DNA of 32,482 nt from Acidobacteriaceae bacterium (GTDB lineage Bacteria; Acidobacteriota; Terriglobia; Terriglobales; Acidobacteriaceae), in NCBI GenBank assembly GCA_025934135.1, contig JAICYR010000016.1:1-32482 (forward strand), read 5' to 3'. This document shows, in pieces, positions 5,807 to 25,668 of the stretch (its first letter is position 1; each line of letters starts with the position of its first letter). Both the position numbers and the translations under genes were made by a program. The notes under the pieces are model-generated. The model was not told the origin of the DNA. It searched no databases and saw only the letters and a program-made list of their open reading frames with translations.

Positions 5807-7027
5807 ATGAGCGCCCCAGCCCAACCCGCAACCGCCTCAAATCCATCCGAACTCAACCTGCCCATCTACATGGACAACCAGGCCACCACGCCGCTCGACC
5901 CGCGCGTGCTGGAAGCCATGATGCCATGGCTCACAACGAAATTCGGCAACGCCGCCAGCCGCAGCCACTCGTTCGGATGGGAAGCCGAAGCCGCCGTCGA
6001 TCACGCCCGCCAGCAGGTCGCCACCCTCATCGGAGCATCACCGAAGGAAATCGTCTTTACCTCCGGAGCAACAGAATCCGACAACCTCGCCCTCAAGGGC
6101 ATCGCCGAGGCATACCGCGAACGCGGCAACCACATCATCACCCAGGTCACGGAGCACAAAGCCGTCCTCGACACCTGCCACCGGCTGGAAAAATCCGGCT
6201 GCCGCATCACCTATCTTCCAGTAAACTCCGCTGGCCTCATCAACGTCGAAGACCTTCGCAGTGCGATCGATGAGACGACCATCCTCGTCACTATCATGGC
6301 CGCCAATAACGAAATCGGGGTCATCCAGCCCATCACCGAAATCGGCCAGCTCTGCCGCGAGCGAAACGTCTTTTTCCATTCCGATGCCGTGCAGGCTGCG
6401 GGCAAAATCCCCCTCGATGTAAACGCCATGAGCATCGATGCGCTGTCCCTCTCCGCGCACAAGCTCTACGGCCCCAAGGGAGTCGGCGCGCTCTACGTCC
6501 GCCGCCGCAACCCCAAAGTCGAAATCGCCGAGCAAATCAACGGCGGAGGCCACGAGCGCGGCATGAGGTCCGGGACGCTCAATGTCCCCGGCATCGTCGG
6601 CTTCGGTCAAGCCTGCGAAATCGCCGCTCAGGAAATGGCCTCTGAAGCCGAACGACTGCGCCGCCTGCGCGACCGTCTCCGAGAGCGGCTCAAATCTGCC
6701 CTCGACCAGGTTCGCGTCAACGGCTCGCTCGAACACCGCCTCCCCGGAAACCTCAACATGAGCTTCGCCGGAGTCGAAGGGGAAGCCCTCCTCATGGGCC
6801 TGAGCGATGTCGCCCTCTCCACCGGATCGGCCTGCACTTCCGCCGCACTGGAGCCTTCTTATGTCCTGCGCGCCCTCGGGCTTGGAGACGAAATCGCCTA
6901 CAGTTCGCTCCGTTTCGGCTTGGGCCGCTTCAACACCGAAGCTGAAATTGACTACACAGCCGACCGTCTTATCGAAGTAGTCCAAAACCTGCGCGAGCTC
7001 TCGCCGACTTACGAGGCAGCAAAGTGA
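5807..7027 (+). CDS. iscS: Cysteine desulfurase (NifS/IscS class)
   Basis: [34 protein letters not shown]-lysine region [22 protein letters not shown], catalytic-Cys region [17 protein letters not shown]. Confidence 0.95.
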
Positions 7028-22282: not shown

Positions 22283-22427
22283 GGAACGCCCCCGTTCTTT
22301 GGGGGATGCAAGGGTTAGCATACATCATCCGCCCAAACGGGGTCGCCTGTCATCCTCCAAATGGATGAACGCCCGGGAATTCTCTTGCGCCGGGCGCCAT
22401 CAGCCGTGTATCATCTAGTTAGTCAAG

Positions 22428-22487
22428 ATGTTCATGTTCCTCAACGCGATGTGTTGTTGTTCGGCTCCGGGCCGGACCTGTCGCTGA
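22428..22487 (+). CDS. Putative Cys-rich leader peptide (19 aa) MFMFLNAMCCCSAPGRTCR*
   Basis: ATG TTC ATG TTC CTC AAC GCG ATG TGT TGT TGT TCG GCT CCG GGC CGG ACC TGT CGC TGA; three tandem Cys codons plus a fourth, upstream of a sulfite reductase-type gene and followed by a terminator-like hairpin. Confidence 0.7.
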   Translation: MFMFLNAMCCCSAPGRTCR

Positions 22488-22539
22488 TCTGTCTTCAGCC
22501 GCACTCGCCGACGCCCACCCTTCTTCTGGTGGGTTTTTT
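22460..22539 (+). promoter_or_regulatory. Putative transcription attenuator: pause-type hairpin (22460-22476) and rho-independent terminator hairpin (22513-22539)
   Basis: TTCGGC-TCCGG-GCCGGA; then gCCCACC-cttcttct-GGTGGG followed by TTTTTTATTT, all between the leader ORF and ATG 22588. Confidence 0.65.
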
Positions 22540-22587
22540 ATTTCGAGAACATTTTTGCTCCCAGCCCGAAAGATTTCAGAGAGAGAG

Positions 22588-24261
22588 ATGACTGATACCC
22601 CAGCCGCAGCGGTACCCGTAAAGGAAACTAAGGCCCAGCGCGTCGAGCGCATCAAGCGCGAGAAAAACCCCTGGCAGGCCTTCGATGAAGTGCGCCAGTT
22701 CGCGCGCGAGGGGCGCAATAGCGTCACTCCTGAATGGATCAGCTCCTATTTCCGCTGGTGGGGAACCTACACGCAAGGCGACGGCGCCGGCGCCATCGGG
22801 GGCAAGGGCGGCGAGGGCCTCATGTCCGAATACTTTATGATGCGCATCGGCACGCCGAACGGGCTGCTCAAGTCGTATCAGGTGCGCGCCATCGGCGAGC
22901 TCGTAAAGAAGTACGCGCGCAATATGTGCGACATCACAACCCGCCAGAACATCCAGTTACACTGGCTCACCATTGAGTCGCTTCCGGAAGTCGTCGACGC
23001 GCTCCACAAAATTGGCCTCTCCCCAAAGGGGGCCTGCGGTGATGTGGCCCGCAACATCACTGGCTGCCCGCTGGCCGGCGTCGACGCCGAGGAAATCACC
23101 GACGCATCTGAACTGTCGCTTAAGGTTGCCCGCGCCATCATCGGCAATGAAGCCTTCGTGAACCTGCCGCGCAAATTCAAGCTCTGCGTCACCGGCTGCT
23201 CAAGCTGGTGCTGCTATCCCGAACTCAACGACGGCGCCTTCACCGCGGTCCGTCGCGGAGACGAGATCGGCTACACCGTCCGGGTCGGCGGCGGCCTCTC
23301 CAAAGAGCCACACCTCGCCGTCAAGCTCAACGCCTTCGTCCGCCCCGATCAGGTGGTGGACGTGGCCCGCACCATCGCCGAAATCTTCCGCGACCAGCAA
23401 GTCCTGCGCGAAAACCGCGATAAGGCCCGCCTCAAGTATCTGTTCATGGTCCACGGCTGGACCCCCGACCGCTTCCTCAACGAAATTGAAACCCGTCTCG
23501 GCGTCAAATTCGATCCCGCTCCGCAGGAAAAAGTCCCGAGTGATGTCCTCCGCGACCATGTCGGCATTCACGCGCAGAAGCAGCCCGGCCTCAGCTATGT
23601 GGGCGCGTCCGTGCTGCGGGGCCGCGTCACCGGAGACCAGTTAATCGCCGCCGCTAACCTCGCCGAAGAGTACGGTGTCAATGGAGGCGAGCTGCGCACT
23701 ACTGTCATGCAGAACCTCGTCATCGTCAACGTCCCTACAGAGCGCGCTCGAGATCTGGTCGACGAGCTGCACGGCATCGGCTTCCGCGTGGAGGGCACAG
23801 AGTTCTGGCGCGGGACCATCGCCTGCACCGGGACCGAATTCTGCAAGCTCGCCATCACTGAAACCAAGGGCTTCGCCAAGTGGCTGGTCGAGGAACTGGA
23901 AGACCGCCTGCCCGGATTCGATCAGCAAATTAAGCTCGACATCACCGGATGCCCGAACAGTTGCGGCCAGCATTGGATCGCCGACATCGGCCTCGAAGGC
24001 AAGAAGGCGAAGCACAACGGCCAGATGGTCGATGCCTACAACTTTGTCCTGGGCGGCGCGCTCGGCAAACACGCCGGGCTGTCTCGCGTGACCGGCTATC
24101 GCGCTCCGGCCACCGAAGTTCCCGACGCCATCGAGCGGCTGCTTCGTTCTTATTTGGAAGACCGCGCCGAAGGAGAAAACCTGCGCGCCTGGTTCGCCCG
24201 CCACGAAACTTCCGAGCTGAAGGACTTGCTTGCCGGCGAACCAATCCTCGCAGCAGTCTAA
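22588..24261 (+). CDS. Siroheme/4Fe-4S sulfite (or nitrite) reductase, NirA/SirA type
   Basis: RWWGTYTQ, DITTRQNIQLHWL, NITGCPLAG, C-x5-C (CTGTEFC) and C-x3-C (CPNSC) siroheme-4Fe4S ligand motifs. Confidence 0.95.
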   Translation: MTDTPAAAVPVKETKAQRVERIKREKNPWQAFDEVRQFAREGRNSVTPEWISSYFRWWGTYTQGDGAGAIGGKGGEGLMSEYFMMRIGTPNGLLKSYQVRAIGELVKKYARNMCDITTRQNIQLHWLTIESLPEVVDALHKIGLSPKGACGDVARNITGCPLAGVDAEEITDASELSLKVARAIIGNEAFVNLPRKFKLCVTGCSSWCCYPELNDGAFTAVRRGDEIGYTVRVGGGLSKEPHLAVKLNAFVRPDQVVDVARTIAEIFRDQQVLRENRDKARLKYLFMVHGWTPDRFLNEIETRLGVKFDPAPQEKVPSDVLRDHVGIHAQKQPGLSYVGASVLRGRVTGDQLIAAANLAEEYGVNGGELRTTVMQNLVIVNVPTERARDLVDELHGIGFRVEGTEFWRGTIACTGTEFCKLAITETKGFAKWLVEELEDRLPGFDQQIKLDITGCPNSCGQHWIADIGLEGKKAKHNGQMVDAYNFVLGGALGKHAGLSRVTGYRAPATEVPDAIERLLRSYLEDRAEGENLRAWFARHETSELKDLLAGEPILAAV

Positions 24262-24366: not shown

Positions 24367-25668
24367 ATGACCCTGTTCCCAGCATTCATCAAACTCGCTC
24401 GCCGTCCCTGCCTCGTCGTCGGCGCGGGCGAGGTTGCGCTACAGAAAATCTCTTCCTTGCTCGCCGCTGAAGCCCACGTGCGCGTCATCGCTCCGCGCAT
24501 CCATCCTGAAGTCGCCGTTCTCGCCGCTGCCGGGACGATCTCACTCGAACGGCGCGCCTTTTCTGCCACAGATCTCGACCGCACCTTCCTCGTCATCGCC
24601 GCAACCGACGACCCAGCCATAAACGCCGCCGTCTACGATGCCGCAGTCGAGCGCAACATCCTCTGCAATTCCGTCGACGACCCTCCCCACTGTGACTTCT
24701 ATTTTGGCTCCGTTGTCTCGCGCGGCGACCTCCAGATCGCAATCTCCACGGCGGGCGGAAGCCCGGCTCTCGCACAGCGCCTCCGCAAAGAAATCGACGC
24801 GCAGTTGCCCGAAGACCTCGGCCCATGGCTGGCCGAAACCGGACGCCTCCGCCGCGAGGTCCTCGCCCGCGTCGAACCCGGCGAAGACCTCCGCCTGCTG
24901 CTGCATCGCCTCGCCGAGCGCGAGGTTTGCGGATCAGCCGCCTGCCAAGCCCGTGCCATCGCATTCGGCGGAGCTGAACCCGGCCGCGTCTATCTGGTCG
25001 GAGCAGGCCCCGGTGATCCCGACCTGCTCACCGCGCGAGCCTCCCGCCTGCTTGCCACGGCAGACGTTGTCCTGAACGACGATCTGGTCCCGGAAAAGAT
25101 TCTGGCCCTCGCCTACCCCGATGCTCTGGCCCAAAACGTCGGCAAGCGCTGCGGCAAAAAGAAAATCACCCAGGCGGAAATCAACGCGCTCATGATCGAA
25201 CACGCTCGCGCGGGCCGCTCCGTCGTGCGCCTCAAGAGCGGCGACCCGCTGGTCTTTGGCCGCGCCGCCGAGGAAATCGACGCCCTCCGCGAAGCCGGAG
25301 TGGCCTTTGAAGTCGTCCCCGGAATCACCGCCGCCTTCGCCGCCGCCGCGGCCTTGGGACTTTCCCTCACCGACCGCCGCGCCGCCTCCAGCGTGCATTT
25401 TTCCAGCGGACATCACGCCACCGGCGGCCCTCCGGCCATTCCCGAGCCTACCCGCGTCGTCTATATGCCGGGGCGCAACCTCGGCGCGCTCGCATCAGAA
25501 TGGCGCGCTCAGGGCCTTCCCTCCGACCTGCCCTGCGCCGCAATCTCGCGCGCCGCCCAGCACGATCAGCGCATTATCAAAACCACCCTCGATCAACTCC
25601 ATCAAATTGAGCCCGGCCCTTCGCCTGTGCTGGTGCTTGCCGGCTGGGTGCTCAAAAACCACTTCTAG
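24367..25668 (+). CDS. cysG: Siroheme synthase: fused precorrin-2 dehydrogenase/ferrochelatase and uroporphyrinogen-III C-methyltransferase
   Basis: N-terminal CLVVGAGEVALQKISSLL Rossmann domain, NSVDDPPHCDFYFGSVVSRGDLQIAISTAGGSPALAQRLR; C-terminal SUMT VYLVGAGPGDPDLLTARA, RLKSGDPLVFGRAAEE, EVVPGITAA. Confidence 0.95.
   Translation: MTLFPAFIKLARRPCLVVGAGEVALQKISSLLAAEAHVRVIAPRIHPEVAVLAAAGTISLERRAFSATDLDRTFLVIAATDDPAINAAVYDAAVERNILCNSVDDPPHCDFYFGSVVSRGDLQIAISTAGGSPALAQRLRKEIDAQLPEDLGPWLAETGRLRREVLARVEPGEDLRLLLHRLAEREVCGSAACQARAIAFGGAEPGRVYLVGAGPGDPDLLTARASRLLATADVVLNDDLVPEKILALAYPDALAQNVGKRCGKKKITQAEINALMIEHARAGRSVVRLKSGDPLVFGRAAEEIDALREAGVAFEVVPGITAAFAAAAALGLSLTDRRAASSVHFSSGHHATGGPPAIPEPTRVVYMPGRNLGALASEWRAQGLPSDLPCAAISRAAQHDQRIIKTTLDQLHQIEPGPSPVLVLAGWVLKNHF

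Follow-up and report, generated by a model that had tools for sequence, protein, structure and literature searches.

Among the closest described counterparts of the element reported here are the poly-Cys leaders of mycobacteria (Canestrari et al. 2020, doi 10.1111/mmi.14498), which, according to PMC13236596, are leaderless and act by translation attenuation. Candidate cys leader peptides were proposed in Actinobacteria, upstream of cys operons and cbs, by Seliverstov et al. (2005; PMC1262725), and terminators were not found in the mycobacterial cys leaders in that analysis. In the Rhodobacterales, the uORFC-8-2 motif upstream of cysS is predicted to act by ribosome-mediated attenuation (PMC8632094). 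According to a 2010 survey, the attenuators of Acidobacteria have almost no assigned functions (PMC2965389). We found no description of the present element in the openly licensed papers on leader peptides and attenuation in Acidobacteria, in agreement with an earlier note on this DNA, which knew of no described example in such bacteria.

We present a short ORF with tandem Cys codons upstream of a reductase gene, sir, in a contig of an Acidobacteriaceae genome (hereafter the window, i.e. the whole stretch of 32,482 nucleotides that was analysed). The earlier note had read this region as a cysteine-responsive attenuator, and its reading is supported by the conservation of the ORF, by a terminator and an antiterminator that recur across the family, and by a second attenuator upstream of cysD. 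We consider it very likely that the sir leader works by ribosome-mediated transcription attenuation, with charged tRNA-Cys as the sensed signal and the sir-cysG operon as its target.

The sir locus and its leader in relatives

The features of the locus are as follows:

22385-22414, forward strand: candidate promoter, TTGCGC (22385-22390), an 18-nt spacer and TATCAT (22409-22414), read from the sequence.
22428-22487, forward strand: leader ORF MFMFLNAMCCCSAPGRTCR with its stop codon, read from the sequence; a Cys-rich ORF is kept upstream of orthologous sir genes.
22452-22460, forward strand: three tandem Cys codons TGT TGT TGT, the proposed regulatory codons, read from the sequence.
22459-22477, forward strand: protector hairpin (segments 1:2), 22459-22466 with 22470-22477, predicted from the fold of the free leader.
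22469-22475, forward strand: predicted antiterminator 5' strand GGGCCGG, pairing with 22508-22510 and 22513-22516, from the minimum free energy fold with a ribosome on the Cys codons, the duplex and the ribosome-position curve.
22508-22516, forward strand: predicted antiterminator 3' strand CCG-ac-GCCC, overlapping the terminator 5' arm, from the duplex and the fold.
22513-22539, forward strand: intrinsic terminator, stem 22513-22519 with 22528-22534 and T run 22534-22539, from the sequence, the scan and the family.
22588-24261, forward strand: sir, a member of the ferredoxin-type sulfite/nitrite reductase family (Pfam NIR_SIR, NIR_SIR_ferr).
24367-25668, forward strand: siroheme synthase CysG (NCBIfam NF007922 above cut-off; Pfam).

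The best solved relative of the reductase is M. tuberculosis NirA (1zj8), which we take to be a sulfite reductase, and the protein has a lysine in its motif LPRKFK at the place of the asparagine in the LPRKWN motif of plant nitrite reductase. A lysine at this position is typical of sulfite reductases. Hence, we name the gene sir, and its sequence indicates that it is probably an assimilatory sulfite reductase gene. CysG, which makes the siroheme cofactor of Sir, is encoded downstream on the same strand, and its gene is probably cotranscribed with sir. The gene upstream of the leader ORF lies on the opposite strand. Elsewhere on the contig (4872-5756 and 5807-7027), a gene for an Rrf2/IscR-like regulator, recognized by inspection, adjoins an aminotransferase class V gene resembling that of the cysteine desulfurase IscS, forming a further sulfur-related pair.

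The leader ORF comprises 19 codons from the ATG at 22428 to the TGA at 22485-22487, with a fourth Cys codon, TGT 22479-22481, beyond the three tandem ones, just as the earlier note had read it. The pattern TGTTGYTGY by itself is not enriched in the genome of the window, with 134 occurrences against 186 of the reversed control pattern. We therefore turn to the relatives, which include Granulicella and Terracidiphilus. In 104 upstream regions of orthologous sir genes of the Acidobacteriaceae (102 distinct), we looked for a short ORF with at least three clustered Cys codons within the last 300 nt before sir. Such an ORF is present in 80 of the 102 distinct regions, as against 1/102 antisense controls; its frequency is 2.4% in dinucleotide shuffles and 0.5% in windows taken far upstream. 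It is kept at 71 of 90 family loci and in 44 of 48 genera, so that the conservation on which the earlier note had staked its reading beforehand is borne out. The closest relatives of the window within its genus (L004-L006) have interrupted runs, e.g. CCPACC, and stand outside this strict count.

The runs of the orthologous leaders take forms such as CCGCC, CCACCC, CTCCCC and CCCCCC. They are encoded by both TGT (338 codons) and TGC (172), which fits selection for the codons rather than for a fixed RNA motif. From the Cys run to the end of the leader there are a median of 11 codons, which carry the antiterminator strand, and the sequence outside the run varies by clade (AGRLLT, RRTCG, SDAAAC, TAKAMA). 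In one genus (g56; L048, L050, L176), the poly-Cys leader precedes a gene for a YeiH-like putative transporter upstream of sir: two loci of this genus without a leader at sir have it about 1.36 kb further upstream, before the transporter gene. This position suggests that the leader heads a longer operon. In other families of Acidobacteriota, SiR-like genes are mostly without a leader directly upstream. At three loci of such families (L210, L211, L219), sulfite reductase-like genes have poly-Cys ORFs (ACCCCCCCRPTRPTGGSG and similar) about 1.25 kb upstream, where they may head the operons of these genes.

The candidate promoter of the window has its -10 element, TATCAT, at -19 from the leader ATG, with a predicted start at about 22421 and thus a predicted leader of 6-7 nt before the ATG; its -35 element is weak, and a strict promoter scan did not list it. 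Among the 87 orthologous leaders with an in-frame ATG, 46 have a -10 element at -12/-13 from this ATG together with a -35 element at 16-18 nt, where 0.5 would be expected. Hence, in about half of the relatives the predicted transcripts begin at the leader ATG or within 1-2 bases of it, i.e. they are leaderless.

Terminator, antiterminator and the position of the ribosome

The terminator-like hairpin that the earlier note had reported before sir is present (GCCCACC-cttcttct-GGTGGGT-TTTTTATTTC) and has equivalents across the relatives. A terminator scan of the window detects it at 22513-22534, and this one hit against 0.5 expected in shuffles is unremarkable alone. In the family, an intrinsic terminator (score of at least 20, in the stretch from the leader stop codon to the start of sir) is found in 73 of 92 leaders, compared with 0.9% of shuffles. 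It usually starts 25-35 nt past the leader stop codon, a place that is steady across clades, and its stem differs from clade to clade (CCCACC/GGTGGG, CCCGCG/CGCGGG, CCCACGA/TCGTGGG, CCCACCGCCAG/CTGGCGGTGGG). The TGT run and the terminator-like site are each near background when taken singly, and their significance comes from conservation and not from the single sequence.

The distance from the terminator to the sir ATG varies within the family. In a group including L062, L063 and L074, about 6 nt separate the end of the T run from the ATG; this leaves no room for a Shine-Dalgarno sequence after it, and the hairpin may also act on translation there. More generally, one might ask if the leader controls the sir ribosome-binding site in the mycobacterial style, with the hairpin serving to sequester that site and not to terminate transcription. 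For some members of the family, 6-11 nt lie between the end of the hairpin and T run and the sir ATG, so that the 3' arm could also hide the start, and a terminator is absent from some cysD and cysK leaders, which place their Cys codons just before the stop. Nevertheless, in the window the T run is about 50 nt away from the ATG and outside a ribosome-binding site, and a GC-rich stem with a T run is kept in the family although its distance to the ATG varies. Translational attenuation is hence an unlikely account of the sir leader.

An attenuator acting on transcription calls for an alternative fold, and throughout the family the codons past the Cys run can pair with the linker and the terminator 5' arm. 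In 24 mutually dissimilar leaders, the pairing of each leader with its own terminator region has a mean energy of -23.6 kcal/mol, against -18.7 (sd 0.68) for permuted partners; none of 20,000 permutations was as strong as the observed, and the same (0/20,000) holds for the arm alone, while the linker alone gave no significant result in these leaders. This between-clade test, the statistics of which ignore phylogeny, is the main evidence for a predicted alternative fold. Covariation of the stems, to which the earlier note had looked for confirmation, is better for the terminator than for the antiterminator in the largest conserved group, in which the antiterminator is weak and not clearly above shuffles (55/500). 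The duplex of the window itself (-20.9 kcal/mol) is not exceptional among swapped partners (rank 0.365), and the window therefore relies on its relatives for support of the antiterminator.

The folds of the window nevertheless specify which bases may be involved. With the ribosome absent, 22459-22466 is predicted to pair with 22470-22477 and the terminator forms; the shorter hairpin at 22460-22476 noticed earlier is thus real, with its pairing extended in the free fold. A ribosome stalled on the Cys codons allows 22469-22475 to pair with 22508-22516, which breaks the terminator stem, whereas with the ribosome at the stop codon the terminator alone is left. As for the antiterminator sketched in the earlier note, its pairing of GGGC (22469-22472) with GCCC (22513-22516) recurs in the fold, but that of GTCG with CGAC does not, CGG (22473-22475) with CCG (22508-22510) being favored in its stead.

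When complete leaders were folded to full equilibrium, clean switching was seen in only 2 of 85 loci: the terminator usually wins despite the stalled ribosome (0.49 in the window), and the model consequently needs kinetic competition. Classical attenuators switch kinetically. We accordingly adopted co-transcriptional folding, before the terminator 3' arm is made, in place of the full-equilibrium switch test. Under these conditions the terminator 5' arm of the window is paired upstream with a probability of 0.57 when the ribosome is stalled and 0.11 when it is at the stop codon, the corresponding means for 85 loci being 0.61 and 0.25 (p~1e-14). Compared with shuffled leaders, the stalled-ribosome pairing shows a modest gain (0.61 vs 0.55, p=1e-4).

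The analysis thus shows the parts and that they are conserved, that leader and terminator pair as matched partners and, by calculation, that the pairing depends on where the ribosome stands; we posit that the parts could operate as a transcription attenuator in the following way. Transcription would start a few nucleotides before the leader ATG, and exactly at the ATG in many relatives, with a ribosome trailing RNA polymerase through the leader ORF. If cysteine, the presumptive signal, is ample, the ribosome would reach the stop codon and cover about 22467-22498; this would block the antiterminator strand 22469-22475, the 22513-22534 hairpin would form, and transcription would terminate at the T run. 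If charged tRNA-Cys is scarce, the ribosome would stall at 22452-22460 and open the protector hairpin (22459-22477); the freed 22469-22475 would pair with 22508-22516 while the 3' arm of the terminator is still to be transcribed, this being the step of kinetic competition during transcription, and the polymerase would read into sir-cysG. In an untranslated leader, the protector hairpin would keep the terminator on. The response would run in the direction of induction upon shortage, such that the cell probably switches on cysteine production only when its ribosomes are short of cysteine.

Further poly-Cys leaders and alternative readings

Genome-wide, we used both pattern and family searches. 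The combined pattern of a poly-Cys ORF and a T run has matches in 36 of 121 genomes and gave about a dozen apparently chance loci with an unrelated downstream gene or none, due to which the pattern was used only for finding target genes. Of the latter, cysD and cysK took their names from the family search that detected them and the others from inspection of the translations, except that sir and CysG of the window were compared with family libraries. The genome of the window has a second poly-Cys leader, with the ORF MRLSMQTMACCCACCMRRNGCELCM and a terminator, before cysD (L113; G000:C134, minus strand, leader Cys codons near 6352-6360), and poly-Cys leaders also precede cysD in relatives (L106, L107, L108, L168, L188, L192). 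Others are found before genes for tetrapyrrole methylases/siroheme synthases of the CobA/CysG type (L173, L179). In two genomes (G062, G101; L182, L183), a poly-Cys leader with a T run precedes a CysI-type sulfite reductase gene non-orthologous to that of the window, suggesting either that one reductase gene replaced the other while the control was kept or that the arrangement arose independently. At two further loci (L138, L140), cysK is preceded by a poly-Cys ORF without a terminator that ends in CCCCC or CCCCCCR, the Cys run lying directly before the stop; these resemble the mycobacterial translational type. Poly-Cys ORFs with a T run were also observed before peroxiredoxin-like genes (L169, L175), which could be regulon members or chance.

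These targets have cysteine synthesis in common, and not sequence. Tentatively, and with somewhat less than even confidence, we propose that cysteine synthesis in the Acidobacteriaceae might be governed mainly by separate leaderless poly-Cys attenuators, some of them terminating transcription and others without a terminator, at sir-cysG, cysDN, siroheme synthesis, cysK and perhaps peroxiredoxin genes. The main sulfur sensor would then be charged tRNA-Cys and not a protein of the CysB or CymR type.

The range of targets also bears on the peptide itself. Some relatives encode very Cys-rich peptides, and one of these has a sub-threshold match to the streptolysin S TOMM family (E 0.058), as might be expected of a functional metal-binding or modified peptide with an incidental place before sir. 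However, no NCBIfam family scored above its cut-off for the leader peptides, their sequences outside the Cys run differ by clade and pair with the matching terminator arm, and the leaders precede cysteine-pathway genes of unrelated sequence; we hence regard such a peptide function as very unlikely. It is highly improbable that a short ORF with a TGT run merely happens to adjoin the terminator of another transcript: the background frequency of TGTTGYTGY in the genome and the near-expected count of terminator-like sites in the window would permit it, but in 44 of 48 genera the leader has an equivalent position and its parts follow one another in an unchanged order, and, as the upstream gene is on the opposite strand, no sense transcript from there needs terminating. 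Finally, riboswitches often control those sulfur genes of other bacteria that have a 5' terminator, but control of this terminator by a metabolite-binding riboswitch (e.g. for SAM or another sulfur-linked ligand), with the ORF being secondary, is barely conceivable, as no Rfam family, SAM and T-box included, has a match anywhere in the window at gathering thresholds and the leader region of about 120 nt is already filled by the ORF, antiterminator and terminator.

Comparison with known attenuators

The ribosome-mediated transcription attenuator that we favor is thus of a known kind, while its phylum, its target genes and its combination of a (near-)leaderless ORF, as predicted from the promoters, with an intrinsic terminator appear to be undescribed. 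It would give an attenuator of an abundant soil phylum a function, target genes and a testable switch. It further points to leaderless leader ORFs beyond Actinobacteria, and to control of this kind over an unrelated, CysI-type sulfite reductase.

With the trp, his and leu attenuators it shares the four-segment logic of regulatory codons, protector hairpin, antiterminator and terminator. We find a short leader ORF with tandem codons for the end product, an intrinsic terminator between this ORF and the structural gene, and an antiterminator that involves the 5' arm of the terminator and is mutually exclusive with it, the last from the pairing in the family and the fold of the window. It differs from them in that the amino acid is cysteine, the ORF is predicted to be leaderless in many relatives, and the short parts diverge fast between genera. 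Like uORFC-8-2, it has a leader ORF with tandem Cys codons and two stems, the last of which is an intrinsic terminator. However, uORFC-8-2 occurs only before cysS, the cysteinyl-tRNA synthetase gene, in one alphaproteobacterial order, whereas the Acidobacteriota leaders stand before sir, as in the window, and before cysD and others, with longer Cys runs and predicted leaderless starts.

The actinobacterial cys leaders (PMC1262725) are similar in their runs of Cys codons before cys operons, but there the run is near the stop and terminators were not found, in contrast to the codons that follow the run in the sir leaders. The likeness to the mycobacterial polycysteine sORFs lies in the poly-Cys ORF, predicted here to be (near-)leaderless, before cysteine and sulfur genes and in charged tRNA-Cys as the proposed sensor. 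The mycobacterial leaders belong to another phylum and are described as employing translation attenuation (PMC13236596); the Acidobacteriota leader instead joins its poly-Cys ORF to an intrinsic terminator, of a kind not found in the mycobacterial cys leaders, and to an antiterminator that matches it.
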